Source of the DNA: Oryzias latipes
Taxonomy: Eukaryota > Chordata > Actinopteri > Beloniformes > Adrianichthyidae
DNA length: 64,000 nucleotides
Assembly (NCBI RefSeq): GCF_002234675.1
Contig: NC_019875.2
Span: forward strand, 22,004,299 to 22,068,298
Direction: 5' to 3'
A program made the position numbers and the translations under genes. The notes beneath the pieces were generated by a model. That model was not told where the DNA came from and did not search any database. It worked only from the letters and a program-made list of their open reading frames with translations. Shown here one piece after another: positions 31,330-47,989 of this stretch. Position 1 is the first letter of the stretch. Every line of letters begins with the position of its first letter.

Positions 31330-32194
31330 TTACAGGTATTGTTTCAGGTCTTTCTTTATTGACTGCAAAAACAAAGAAACAAGAAAAATGTTATTTTGAC
31401 AAACATGTAGAGTCAGAAAAACTGTTTAATACAAAGTTAAAACCTAGACAATGTTCCTGGAGTTAAAATCTGAATCCTTAATTTTCCATAAATGCTGCTA
31501 CAGACGGGCACAGAAACAAACAAAAAGTAGCTTACAAATGGTTCATCCTTTGGAGCGTATCTCTTTACCACCTGTCCATTCTTGTCAATCAGAAACTATC
31601 AAAAGAAACAGAAATAGATTCATTACATACATATGGTCTATTTTAAAATGTAAAGATGCTAAGAATCAAATTTAAAGTGTACCTTTGTGAAGTTCCACTT
31701 GATAAAACTAAAGAGACAAAATAAAATCATTAAAAGACAGTCCGAACATTTTTTCTCCAGATTACCCAGCATTTTGTCTTTTTATAAATTTAAAATGAAA
31801 AAACTTTGTTAAACAGACGCTTAAAATGTGTTCCTTAAACAATAAAAATCATTGAGAAACGTTCACACTGAGTCCATAGCAACCCCATAAAGGAAGAGAA
31901 AAATGTTTTTAAAAATTATTTTAGATAATAAATAAATAACATTTTGTTATATAAAACGGATGAATAGTACTTAATTAGAATGCTTGGTATGTTGAGTAAA
32001 AAATAAAAAATAGAGTAAAGCTTTATGTTGGACAGAAAAAGTTTCTGCTTCTGAGCTTCTGAGAGGATCGATCCCAAAATCAACAAAGACAGCCAGTTCA
32101 GACAAGTTAGATATTTTTGTTTTGAGAAAATAACTGTTTTTTTCTTTAAAATTTCGTTTTTAAAATAAAAAAGATAAATAAATCATTTTTTTCA

Positions 32195-32225
<31 letters not shown>

Positions 32226-44400: not shown

Positions 44401-47400
44401 TGTATTTTTATTTTTTTTATAATAAAGTAATGCTGTAGGGGAAAAGTAAAAAGGGTCCATAACTGTCGATTGTCCAAGGTTGGTATTTCTTCTTTTACTG
44501 ATAACAGCCGTTCTTCTGGGTTTAAACAGTTAATAGTTCTCTTCGATGTTATGACTGCAGACATTAGATTCAGGTCCATATCCTTCTTCAGCTGATATCA
44601 GCGGCGGTGAAAGTTGAGGTCAAGCTATCTGCATGTCAGAACTCTCTGCTGTTATTCAGGTGACGTCAGACGTATGGAGAAAGTGAGGAAACCAGGTTTC
44701 ATATTTCTTGAAATTATTTGGCTCTTTGGATTATTACTCCATGTTGTTTCAGACGACCGTGATAAGACACTTCTCAAAGTCTTTCATGGTGTTCACAACC
44801 AGAACCTTGGACCGGTCCGGTGGACAGAGTGGTTTGACGCAAATCCTGCAGCCTTTATCCCCAAGTGTTCTCAATCTGCTTACGCTTCCTGAGAAGCCGT
44901 GCATGTTTGGAGAATTCAGCATTCCTTCTGGTCAGATGGTCGTTCAGATACACAGAGGAACCTCGGAGATTTTTACGTGGATTCATCAAAGCTAGCTTGT
45001 GTTTTTGATTCACAAACCTGATGAGGATCGCTGGTTTATCCATCTCCTTTCTCCTGGGGAGCGGGTGGCAGGTCTTGATGGTATTGAGATCCAGGGAAAT
45101 CCCTTTAGATGTGAGAAATGAATGTATTTGCTGTTCCAGAGATTCTCCACCGCTCGCCGCTTCAGCACTGCTAGCTACGCTAGCATTAGCAGTGCTAGCT
45201 CCTGCTTCATTCAGCTTTGCTCGAGGTTTGATTGGTACTCCAGTGAGAATGACATTATTCATCCTTACTTGTTGTTCCACATCCTCCAGTCTTTTCTCCA
45301 GAATGTCGTCCCGGTTTTCTCGTTGCTCGTTTGGAGCCCAAAATCTTCGGAACTCTTCCATTGTCTCCATAAGTGGCGTTAGCTTAGCGGACACTTGCTC
45401 CATAAAGGAAAACAGCGTAGCTTTGATATCATTAAGAATCTTTTTAAGGTCTTCGTAGTCCTGGTTTTTCTTGGGGGGCATGGTCAGCTCTCTTTTTTTG
45501 GAGAAAATCAACTTTTTAAGTCATTTGAAGATAGTTGTATCCGCAGAGAGCCACGCACGTGTCCTGCCGTAACCCGGAACCGGGTTGTGTATTACAAAGG
45601 GCATTTTATTTTAATGTTTGAACTATTCTGTGGCTGCCATGAATCAACATTACTTTTATTTCTTTAAAAATATATGTAATAATTTCACTTTGTAAATATT
45701 ATACACTTATTTTGCTATAGACAGTGTCATAAATGCCCACCTAAACCCCTCATAAATTCAAAGATGCTCTTTTTTTTATTGTTGTTACAATCTAGACTTT
45801 AAAACTATGTAAATCATCTGACATTCTCTTACAAGAATGTCCATGACTTTAAGGAAACAAAAACAAAAAAATAGCATGTCCTTTAACACAGAATAAGACT
45901 GATCAATACTACATTAAAGGAATGTTGATTTCATCTATGGAAACATGCTAATAACTCACTTTCCCATGAATCCTTTTCCTTTAGGCTGTTCTTTCATCCA
46001 CTTCCACAGGGGGTGAGCGGTGTCATTGTTGACATCTATCTTACTAAAGAGATCAAACTCTGCGTTGTAACCCTTAGCAAACTCTTTAATCTCTGCTTCT
46101 GTTCCAGGCTCCTGAGTTGCAGAACAAAAAAAGTTAAAAGCAGCAAAATAAACCAGAAGGACATTTAATTGAAAAATTCAGTGATCTATAACTACTCGGC
46201 ATTTCCACAATGAGATGTTAAACATTTAGGCAATTTTATTCAGTAAATTCAAGGGAGAAGCAGCATTTGCAGACAAAAAACAAAGTGTCTATTGGTTTCA
46301 CCTGGGAGCCAAACTGGTTGCATGGGAATGCAAGGATGCGTAAACCTTGCTCAGCATACTGGGTGTGCATTGCAGTGAGCTGAGTGTAGTTTACGCCGGT
46401 CAGTCCTCATTTAGAGGCGACATTTACAATGATGCAGACATAACCCCTGGAAGAGAGAAGAAAGCAAACCCAGAGTTAAGACGAGGGGCGTCCCAATCCG
46501 GTCACGCGATCAAACATTGTGTGATACGATCACATATTTTCAGACAGGATGTTGTATCCCTATCGGGAATTGGATATTTATTTTATTCTCATTATTATAA
46601 TCAGTGCCATATTTAAAGCTTATAATTACAGACAAATATCCTACAGGAATGGATCAAGACATTTCATTGCCATAAAGCACAGCAGAATACAGCACTAGTG
46701 AGCAGGAGGCACAAATAGTACTTTTCTCAGAGAACGACTCAAAGTGCTTCACAATCCTAAAACATAAAATCAGAGAAAGAACACAAAATGGCACAGGGAG
46801 TCTAAAGCTGGTACAACCCTATGAAACACACTCAGGCATTTAAGTACACAAACAAACAAACAAAAGGGAACACAAGTCAGCTAAAAGCTCTCCTGAATAA
46901 AAACGTCTTAACTTAAGTTTTAAAAACACTCCACTGAGTCAATCTGGCACAGAGACAGGGGGAGGTCATTCCAAAGTCGGGGAGCAATTTGTTCATATTG
47001 TAAACGTGTTAGAACAGAATCGGACCGGGGCCAAAGAAAACCGATCGGGACATCCTTACTGATCAGTGCAGTGATCTTCCTTTTACCTGTATTTCTCAAG
47101 GGACACATCATTCCCATCGATGTCTATGGCCGAAAATTCATAGATGGAGGCTGCTTTTTTCCAGTCTTCTTTCTGAGCACACTGCAAAAGTAAATAAATG
47201 AAAAAAAATAGAGGGATTATTGCAAAAAGATGTGGGTTCATTAGGCAATAACCGAGTACTTCAACAGCTGGAGTGGCACCGGATGAAGCAAAGATCATAA
47301 CATCATAACAGTCACATGGTCCTGGCAGAAACGACTCAGAGCCTAATCAGAGCTCTTGGTGCACTTTGATCGACTTTTGGTCTAAACCCCACGCCCCTGT

Positions 47401-47989
47401 CTGTTAGTTACTCAAGAAATAAAAGACTGCTTGGATCATGAAGAGAGGTGTAGCTGTCCGCTGTAAATGTAAATCCCTACTGCTACAGGACAACAAGAGG
47501 AAATAATTGGGATTAAACATGAAAAGGAAATCTCCTGTTGATTCCTGTTGGATAAAGCAACTATAACGACACACTTATTAATCCAAAATGTGTTGTTTAC
47601 ACAAATAATAGGAAGAGATTACAAATAAATGCAATAAATTAAAGAAAAATAACAATACAGGTTTCCATTTTCTCAATCAAACCACCCAGCAAGCTCTAAA
47701 ACACCAAAACGAACACGCAACACAGTCAGGTAACGAGATTTGACTGGTGTTGCTAAGCTACCCGCCGCGATCATGTCGGACGTATTTTTCTGCTGCACTG
47801 CGTCTAAAAAAAGAAACCAGTCTGACCTGCATGTTGTTCAACATTCAACACGCGAATATTTAAACACGTAAAGCTCATTTACACATGAAGAAGCATTTAG
47901 TCATTCTGTTTGTGCGCAGGACTTACCATGGTTCTCACGATGCCCCTGGTCCCTAATACCCCTAGTAACACAGCGGGTCGTAACCACAT
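41447..47989 (-). CDS. gpx4: Glutathione peroxidase 4, selenoprotein (UGA = Sec)
   Basis: Seven exons: 47989-47927, 47181-47087, 46446-46302, 46111-45960, 43148-43124, 43035-42976 and 41479-41447; 573 bp, 190 residues counting Sec. It reduces phospholipid hydroperoxides in membranes with glutathione. The catalytic stretch reads [17 protein letters not shown] with TGA at 46409-46407, which a naive frame search reads as a stop. Downstream come FPCNQFGSQ (catalytic Gln), [36 protein letters not shown] (catalytic Trp, Asn) and KKDLPQYL. Exon 1 encodes a leader that may target mitochondria and ends in the Met equivalent to the human cytosolic start. Where the two copies differ this one usually matches human GPX4 (Ala-Ser before Sec, Gly after it, PKGKG, RYGP, DLPxY), so it is the conservative copy. 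Introns hold L1-like and other insertions. Confidence 0.95.
41514..42826. mobile_element. 1.3 kb repeat insertion in a gpx4 intron, GC-rich centre
   Basis: Flanked by the direct repeat AATGTTATTTT (41503-41513 and 42827-42837), and exactly absent from block A. The start matches the repeat at 35226-35418. The middle (42060-42540) is very C/G-rich with runs of C; a GT-rich stretch follows. Near the end the segment GTTAAAATTxGCGGGTAGGG occurs twice (42671 and 42773). No protein is recognised; the long frames on both strands reflect base composition. Confidence 0.7.
43488..45600 (-). mobile_element. L1-like LINE insertion with ORF1 remnant
   Basis: Absent from block A. A 218-codon minus-strand frame (45511-44855) reads [15 protein letters not shown], then a coiled-coil region ([20 protein letters not shown]) and [17 protein letters not shown], the pattern of an L1-type ORF1 RNA-binding protein. 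A one-base shift near 44860 breaks the frame; the continuing frame reads [17 protein letters not shown]. Reverse transcriptase sequence is missing. At 43785-43990 a 3' tail resembles that of fish LINEs (GGGTGGGATTATATAAATTC in the sense direction; ATCAAATCAAA end). Same orientation as the host gene. Confidence 0.75.
46520..46980 (-). mobile_element. LINE 3'-tail-like insertion in gpx4 intron 2
   Basis: About 430 bp are present here but not at the matching site in block A (33155-33170). The sequence with GGGGAGGTCATTCCAAAGTC, CTGAATAAAAACGTCTTAAC and AAAGTGCTTCACAAT resembles the 3' region of a fish LINE or SINE. It lies inside a MITE-like repeat with GGGCGTCCCAATCCGGTCAC and ACCGATCGGGACATCCTTA ends that both blocks share. 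Confidence 0.5.

Follow-up and report, generated by a model that had tools for sequence, protein, structure and literature searches.

A tandem pair of medaka gpx4b genes with a selenocysteine and a cysteine catalytic codon and clustered coding differences

Cysteine forms among the glutathione peroxidases

An additional Cys copy of GPx4b was reported for medaka (Oryzias latipes) by Mariotti et al. 2012, who named it GPx4b2 and argued that the TGA was changed into a Cys codon early after duplication (PMC3316567). The Cys gene described here is taken as GPx4b2, with which it was equated by species and description, and the medaka gpx4b Sec/Cys pair has thus been known since 2012; to call it unusual, as was done in the initial annotation, is fair, but new it is not. 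In the passages of PMC3316567 that deal with GPx4b2, the tandem layout, a retained SECIS, the restriction to nonsynonymous differences and the mosaic identity are absent, and what is added to them here are clustered differences which exclusively change residues, a retained SECIS-like element together with mosaic identity, and the exchange K145E. When full texts were searched for the name GPx4b2, PMC3316567 alone was returned, and among the matches listed, judged by titles, abstract openings and term counts, no other literature on this gene was found; in the available portions of PMC12822975 and PMC12936836 the word 'medaka' is absent, and in that of PMC8614756 Oryzias latipes is named once, in a species list.

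Next to this direct precedent, a Sec to Cys change was described for the Cys GPX6 of rodents, rabbit and marmoset/squirrel monkey (PMC10958145). The likeness, drawn at the level of the overall pattern rather than site by site, consists in the Sec to Cys change coming along with a burst of catalytic-domain changes, with signs of positive selection in GPX6; however, according to the sections of PMC10958145 concerned, the gene itself gave up its Sec without regaining the classic activity, whereas in medaka the Sec parent survives alongside. A further likeness is given by GPX7/GPX8 (medaka L010 and L011; PDB 2p31, 3kij, 3cyn), which are Cys peroxidases of the GPX4/7/8 group and of which 2p31, 3kij and L010, taken to be gpx7, carry Glu or Asp directly before the Cys. 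These represent an ancient branch, while the medaka Cys copy arose from gpx4b by duplication and differs from its Sec twin in 10 codons. Finally, medaka gpx4a (contig 4) is a TGA gene of the same subfamily, but an older duplicate with many differences that lies outside the tandem pair. As the Sec parent and gpx4a both remain, the Cys gene is an addition, and the word 'replacement' used for it earlier does not apply.

The tandem pair and the direction of change

Within the window, i.e., the 64,000 nucleotides of medaka DNA analysed, two full gpx4 genes of seven exons each are arranged head-to-tail on the minus strand (Table 1). Both possess a coding length of 573 nt without any indel between them, GT/AG borders were found at 12/12 introns (six per gene), and a single internal stop occurs across both frames, namely codon 66 (TGA) in the Sec copy, with the frame being open on either side. 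The initial annotation of a tandem pair of complete seven-exon genes with intact splice sites, otherwise open exons and TGA or TGT as catalytic codon was thereby confirmed, down to the location of the genes and the coordinates of the catalytic codons; the duplicated blocks lie about 5 kb apart.

Table 1. Positions, within the window, of the medaka gpx4b genes and associated features
Feature	Position	Strand	Basis
gpx4b2, Cys copy	31330..33934	-	190 aa; exon, splice-site and translation check; best solved match GPX4, E 4e-81
gpx4b2 (Cys copy) exons	33934-33872, 33369-33275, 33086-32942, 32746-32595, 31707-31683, 31595-31536, 31362-31330	-	translation and splice sites
gpx4b, Sec copy	41447..47989	-	exon, splice-site and translation check
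gpx4b (Sec copy) exons	47989-47927, 47181-47087, 46446-46302, 46111-45960, 43148-43124, 43035-42976, 41479-41447	-	translation and splice sites
Catalytic codon 66, Cys copy: TGT (Cys)	33047..33049	-	read from sequence
Catalytic codon 66, Sec copy: TGA (Sec)	46407..46409	-	read from sequence
23-nt stretch with 6/13 coding differences (codons 63, 65, 66, 67, 70), all residue-changing	33036..33058	-	copy alignment
3' block, Cys copy (last exon, 3' region and about 2 kb beyond it)	29128..31397	.	98-99% identical to 39309-41513
3' block, Sec copy, partner of 29128-31397	39309..41513	.	98-99% identity
Shared upstream part, Cys copy	33935..34339	-	394 aligned nt, 12% divergent vs Sec copy
SECIS-like element, Sec copy	41306..41371	-	Rfam SECIS_1, 18.6 bits, E 0.6, below gathering score 35
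SECIS-like element, Cys copy	31189..31254	-	Rfam SECIS_1, 18.6 bits, E 0.6, below gathering score 35

Comparison of the Cys copy with solved chains yielded 41 distinct sequences (E up to 0.001), the 14 best of which (E 4e-81 to 8e-77) carry the name GPX4 or simply 'glutathione peroxidase', with GPX7/8 chains (4e-32 to 2e-31) and GPX1-3 (5e-22 to 8e-21) following; among the glutathione peroxidases, the Cys copy is closest to the GPX4 subfamily. Tetrameric glutathione peroxidases carry an extra loop which GPX4 does not, and the Cys copy aligns with the GPX4 chain 9rf1 over 170 residues without gaps. Apart from Sec or Cys, the catalytic tetrad of the family comprises Gln, Trp and Asn, and Gln101, Trp156 and Asn157 are retained in both translations.

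The Cys form had been proposed to be the derived one, and this was borne out. Nine of the ten differing codons are alignable with human-type GPX4 chains (codon 6 is not), and at these the Sec copy agrees six times (63, 66, 67, 145, 174, 187) and the Cys copy never, whereby at codon 66 the solved GPX4 chains shown print C, while human GPX4 has Sec at this position. Medaka gpx4a, with TGA at the equivalent of codon 66, polarises a seventh codon (65), and 7/7 polarised changes fall on the Cys branch (P = 0.008), with codon 65 being polarised by gpx4a alone and codon 145 by human GPX4 alone. At codon 70, the D of the Cys copy is similar to the mammalian residue (E, or D in chain 5l71), and this change may therefore have occurred in the Sec copy instead; when counted against, polarity becomes 7/8 (P = 0.035).

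Uneven identity and the differences around the catalytic codon

The duplicated block spans 29128-34339 versus 39309-48385 and is thus present as annotated initially but wider in extent; in the Sec copy, additional sequence within introns 2, 4 and 6 breaks it up, and 74 nt (30120-30193) of the Cys copy 3' block are missing from that of the Sec copy. Divergence between the copies amounts to 12% upstream, to 6.0% in the pooled introns (102/1709 aligned nt) and to about 1% in the 3' block, and consequently no single age can be assigned to the block, so that the label 'young' fits it in part. The longest identical runs downstream comprise 528 and 471 aligned nt, the second one bridging the 74-nt gap, and within the gene body no identical run exceeds 174 nt, which is just over the 99th percentile (172) obtained with 5000 shuffles. 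Gene conversion would best explain this mosaic identity, whereby the case for conversion, as that for selection, is built on one pair of sequences. A very unlikely explanation for the pair is an assembly artefact, i.e., two haplotypes or a false duplication, as could be suspected from the 98-99% identical 3' blocks; the upstream and intron divergence and the large copy-specific stretches speak against it, as does the report of the Cys copy in 2012, although the assembly of that time may not be independent (PMC3316567).

Between the coding sequences 13 nucleotide differences are found in 10 codons, and 10/10 codons change the residue, with Sec to Cys counted as one residue change. Six of the differences cluster within a stretch of 23 nt that includes the catalytic codon (scan P = 4e-4); compared to introns this stretch, chosen after inspection, differs at 6/23 positions (P = 0.002), and the exons outside it at 7/550 (P = 9e-7). 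Fourfold sites differ at 0/63 positions in exons 2-7, which yields P = 0.02 against the pooled introns but an unremarkable P = 0.15 at the lower rate of introns 2, 3, 5 and 6 (18/617); over all exons 1/75 differs (codon 6). Zero synonymous changes among 9-13 events correspond to P = 0.02-0.12 under neutrality. The absence of exon indels in 573 nt, as compared to 23 gap events in the 1709 aligned intron nt, gives P = 4e-4 when both copies are pooled and about P = 0.02 for the Cys branch alone (half rate).

Considering these findings, the main rival to a working Cys peroxidase is a relaxed young duplicate heading to a pseudogene, in which Cys was one chance substitution among several and the exons remained alike only through conversion from the Sec copy, a reading that is possible though rather doubtful. 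It gains from nonsynonymous differences (11 nt in exons 2-7) that do not exceed local intron divergence, from 0/11 synonymous changes reaching only P = 0.04-0.08, from the loss of the conserved Gly and of the Lys at human position 125, and from upstream homology that stops after about 400 bp with intron-like divergence; beyond the shared upstream part no colinear homology to the region upstream of the Sec copy was found by alignment. Against it stand the clustering, the absence of exon indels and of any stop, frameshift or splice defect in the Cys copy, and the fact that just 2/9 single changes of TGA yield Cys. Promoter likeness was dropped as evidence for a live gene: in the 150 bp preceding the start codon 9 positions differ on the alignment, which is no better than the introns and hence lends no support.

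It is rather probable, as judged from the sequence comparison, that the Cys copy is a working, retuned and SECIS-independent Cys peroxidase which arose by duplication, conversion and selection. The suggested course assumes that the gpx4b gene was duplicated head-to-tail in the medaka lineage and that in one copy the Sec codon TGA became TGT; gene conversion with the Sec copy would then have evened out the remaining exons and the 3' end, whereby selection would have kept the changes around the catalytic codon apart.

Altered charges and the retained SECIS-like element

Within the Cys copy, the catalytic Cys is directly preceded by Glu and directly followed by Lys, the latter standing where human GPX4 and gpx4a keep Gly, an exchange that could impair the enzyme. 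The cationic, cardiolipin-binding patch of human GPX4 includes residue 125, together with 135 and 152 (PMC10345155). K145E (Sec copy to Cys copy) reverses the charge at the position of human Lys125, where gpx4a has H, whereas K155 and R172 occur in both copies. The product of the Cys copy, if expressed, would be a SECIS-independent thiol peroxidase in which the changed charges (Glu and Lys on either side of the Cys, Glu for human Lys125) would move the reductant or membrane preference off that of classic GPX4, the phospholipid hydroperoxide glutathione peroxidase, by which phospholipid hydroperoxides are reduced at the expense of glutathione.

A single-step transfer of the active-site differences from a different gene, for instance a Cys-type glutathione peroxidase, is disfavoured and has hardly any probability. 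Medaka gpx7 likewise has Glu before the Cys, gpx7 and gpx8 carry an acidic residue four places on (as does human GPX4), and the GPX8 chain 3kij reads D-C-Q-L-T-D; yet gpx7 and gpx8 DNA is clearly different, and a 27-nt query of the stretch, allowing up to 3 mismatches, matched genome-wide the Cys copy only. The resemblance of the two genes is no chance one: when 301 nt surrounding exon 3 of the Cys copy were used as a query against the 734-Mb genome, with the best candidates scored, four matches were obtained, namely the query region, the Sec copy (96%) along with 33 nt of its intron 2, and gpx4a (81% over 92 nt), and a third gpx4b copy was not found among them. At a distance of about 7 kb, gpx4a has an RNA polymerase Rpb5 gene as a neighbour.

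Downstream of the stop codon, 180/180 nt are identical between the copies, the SECIS-like element included, and the Cys copy keeps this element without any UGA left for decoding. An RNA role, in which SECIS-binding protein is sequestered by the Cys mRNA and selenoprotein synthesis thereby tuned, would accord with the unchanged element but is improbable; it leaves the intact protein frame unexplained, and since the whole 3' block is 98-99% identical, the identity of the element needs no special selection.

Returning to the Cys peroxidase, a more far-reaching version is put forward tentatively: conversion may keep the neighbouring gpx4b genes alike nearly throughout their exons and 3' ends save for the catalytic loop, where selection may hold a charge-swapped Cys enzyme against the Sec enzyme, and the Cys form may represent a novel peroxidase that is independent of selenium, differs in the reductant or membrane it prefers and retains the Sec signal in its mRNA. 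The question of why GPX4 depends on selenium could be addressed directly with a natural pair isolating the active site; as medaka keeps Sec and Cys forms side by side, either can be knocked out.

Searches of the window at Rfam gathering scores returned nothing, SECIS included, and no tRNA was found within it; the SECIS_1 matches came from narrow Rfam searches (E up to 10). Because their scores are weak and the folding energy is no better than that of shuffles (z 0.4-0.5), the SECIS call is based on position and core motif, both of which fit in the Sec copy, and on other GPX genes. In these controls, SECIS_1 was found at 2/5 other GPX loci (L012, 28.0 bits; L002, 24.7 bits), both below threshold, and not at L009, L013 and L004 in the same search, while a narrower search of L009 (gpx4a) gave 19.5 bits. 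At the Cys copy, the SECIS_1 match ranked second, after a chance-like snoRNA match.

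The gpx4b tandem pair within the GPX family

The GSHPx profile search of the assembly, covering 734,051,031 bases on 25 contigs, returned 16 exon matches. Besides the tandem pair formed by the Sec copy (gpx4b) and the Cys copy (gpx4b2) in the window (contig 17, 22004299-22068298), a gpx4a gene with TGA was located on contig 4, about 7 kb from an Rpb5 gene, with both Rpb5 matches found lying on this contig. Cys-type GPX genes were identified on contigs 4 and 9, the former presumably being gpx7 and the latter having GPX8 as its best solved match. For the pair itself, both reading frames were recovered (573 nt coding region in each, GT/AG at every intron of both copies), and the seven-exon tandem arrangement, with TGA as the catalytic codon of the Sec gene and TGT as that of the Cys gene, as proposed in the initial annotation, is real. 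The accompanying interpretation held in part: the Cys form is the derived one at 7/7 polarised codons but, as the Sec copy and gpx4a are both TGA-type and present, it was added to two gpx4 genes without displacing either.

The pair has been in print since 2012, when Mariotti et al. (PMC3316567) named GPx4b2; in the passages considered, the Cys change was argued to have occurred early after duplication; the pair is hence a rediscovery, and the new part is a clean, testable active-site contrast. The passages considered of that report do not mention the tandem layout, the retained SECIS, the clustering or the mosaic.

Features of the gpx4b tandem pair (window positions)
Feature	Position	Strand	Remarks
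Sec copy	47989 to 41447	minus	upstream gene, seven exons, codon 66 TGA
Cys copy	33934 to 31330	minus	downstream gene, seven exons, codon 66 TGT
SECIS_1 match, Sec copy	41371-41306		18.6 bits, E 0.6
SECIS_1 match, Cys copy	31254-31189		18.6 bits, E 0.6
Repeat family	29128-29763		many genome sites at 83-94% identity (40 of 508 candidates scored); downstream of Cys copy, nearly identical downstream of Sec copy

Coding differences and the active site

The coding regions differ at 13 nucleotides in 10 codons, and every one of these codons specifies a different amino acid in the two copies (V6A, S63A, E65K, C66U, K67G, D70G, E145K, F153Y, A174G, K187P, the residue of the Cys copy standing first). 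Comparison with the PDB GPX4 chains and medaka gpx4a placed the derived state in the Cys copy at codons 63, 65, 66, 67, 145, 174 and 187 (P = 0.008; 7/8 and P = 0.035 with codon 70 counted against), whereby codon 65 was polarised by gpx4a alone and codon 145 by human GPX4 alone. Polarity at codon 66 derives from the TGA of gpx4a and from the Sec at the equivalent codon of human GPX4; the solved GPX4 chains shown print C there. At codon 70 the derived side may, with some uncertainty, be the Sec copy, and codons 6 and 153 yielded no polarity from GPX4 chains or gpx4a.

Six of the 13 differences fall within 23 nt (33036-33058), a density with P = 4e-4 for 13 random positions in 573. Outside this stretch 7/550 exon positions differ as compared to 102/1709 in introns (P = 9e-7; 102 or 103, depending on the treatment of overlapping pieces), and inside it 6/23 differ (P = 0.002, the stretch having been picked after the fact). 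Synonymous sites give weaker support than the clustering: exons 2-7 contain 63 fourfold sites and none differs, for which the pooled intron rate gives P = 0.02 and that of introns 2, 3, 5 and 6 gives P = 0.15. The chance of all differences being nonsynonymous was P = 0.02 to 0.12, according to the way of counting events. A genome search found no donor sequence for the active-site stretch.

The Cys copy retains Q101, W156 and N157. The Lys adjoining the catalytic Cys might assist in maintaining a charged thiol, a state that Sec attains unaided. Glu precedes the catalytic Cys in GPX7 as it does here; four positions further along, an acidic residue is shared with GPX7/8 and likewise with human GPX4. 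Residue 145 is Glu in the Cys copy, whereas the Sec copy has Lys and gpx4a His. Its human equivalent, given an offset of 20 from the aligned Met, is residue 125, which together with 135 and 152 was described, in the part of PMC10345155 considered, as one of three basic residues holding the cardiolipin head. For Cys GPX6, passages of PMC10958145 report a comparable burst of catalytic-domain changes following Sec loss and classic activity that was not regained, which by analogy would caution against assuming the predicted enzyme of the Cys copy to be a good GPX4.

Mosaic identity and SECIS-like elements

Divergence between the copies is uneven, amounting to 11.9% in the upstream part, 8.9% in intron 1, 7.0% in intron 4 and 2.3-3.7% in the remaining introns, with 1/280 positions differing in the 3' region and 19/1940 in the downstream part. 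Unbroken identity extends furthest downstream, in runs of 528 and 471 aligned nt, of which the latter crosses a 74-nt gap. Within the gene body no run is longer than 174 nt, slightly more than the 172 nt that mark the 99% level in 5000 shuffles. One duplication with a single clock does not yield this pattern. Of the downstream block, 529 nt are a repeat whose other genomic occurrences, among the 40 of 508 candidates that were scored, match at 84-92%; at about 99% likeness between the copies, they have it in common by duplication or conversion rather than by separate insertion beside each. The mosaic would, as far as one pair allows, be accounted for by conversion or by a further exchange affecting the 3' end.

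Further repeats were observed in the region. About 170 nt of Sec copy intron 6, beside the last exon (41507-41670), are 85% alike to 35236-35410 upstream of the Cys copy, which is probably a repeat. By eye, open frames resemble LINE ORF1 (44855-45520, inside Sec copy intron 4) and LINE reverse transcriptase (37365-38210, between the genes), and long repeats of 96-97% identity, some inverted, were found at 7805-9297 and 36346-37369.

Both SECIS_1 matches are below the Rfam threshold of 35, and folding energy showed no advantage of the elements over shuffles. In a joint search of five further GPX loci, SECIS_1 matches came up at two (28.0 and 24.7 bits, likewise below threshold) and not at the remaining three, one of which, gpx4a, reached 19.5 bits in a narrower search. 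Past the stop codon the two copies show no difference over 180 nt; in the Cys mRNA the Sec signal would lie about 450 nt past the catalytic codon with no UGA to decode. Given the likeness of the 3' block as a whole, the element is better read as a conversion-refreshed relic than as a selected SECIS. The match in the 3' region of gpx4a (3131-3064 of L009, its contig 4 locus) has AUGG, the Rfam consensus being AUGA; should this be the true element, Sec decoding by gpx4a may be poor, and the gpx4b pair would then be more important.
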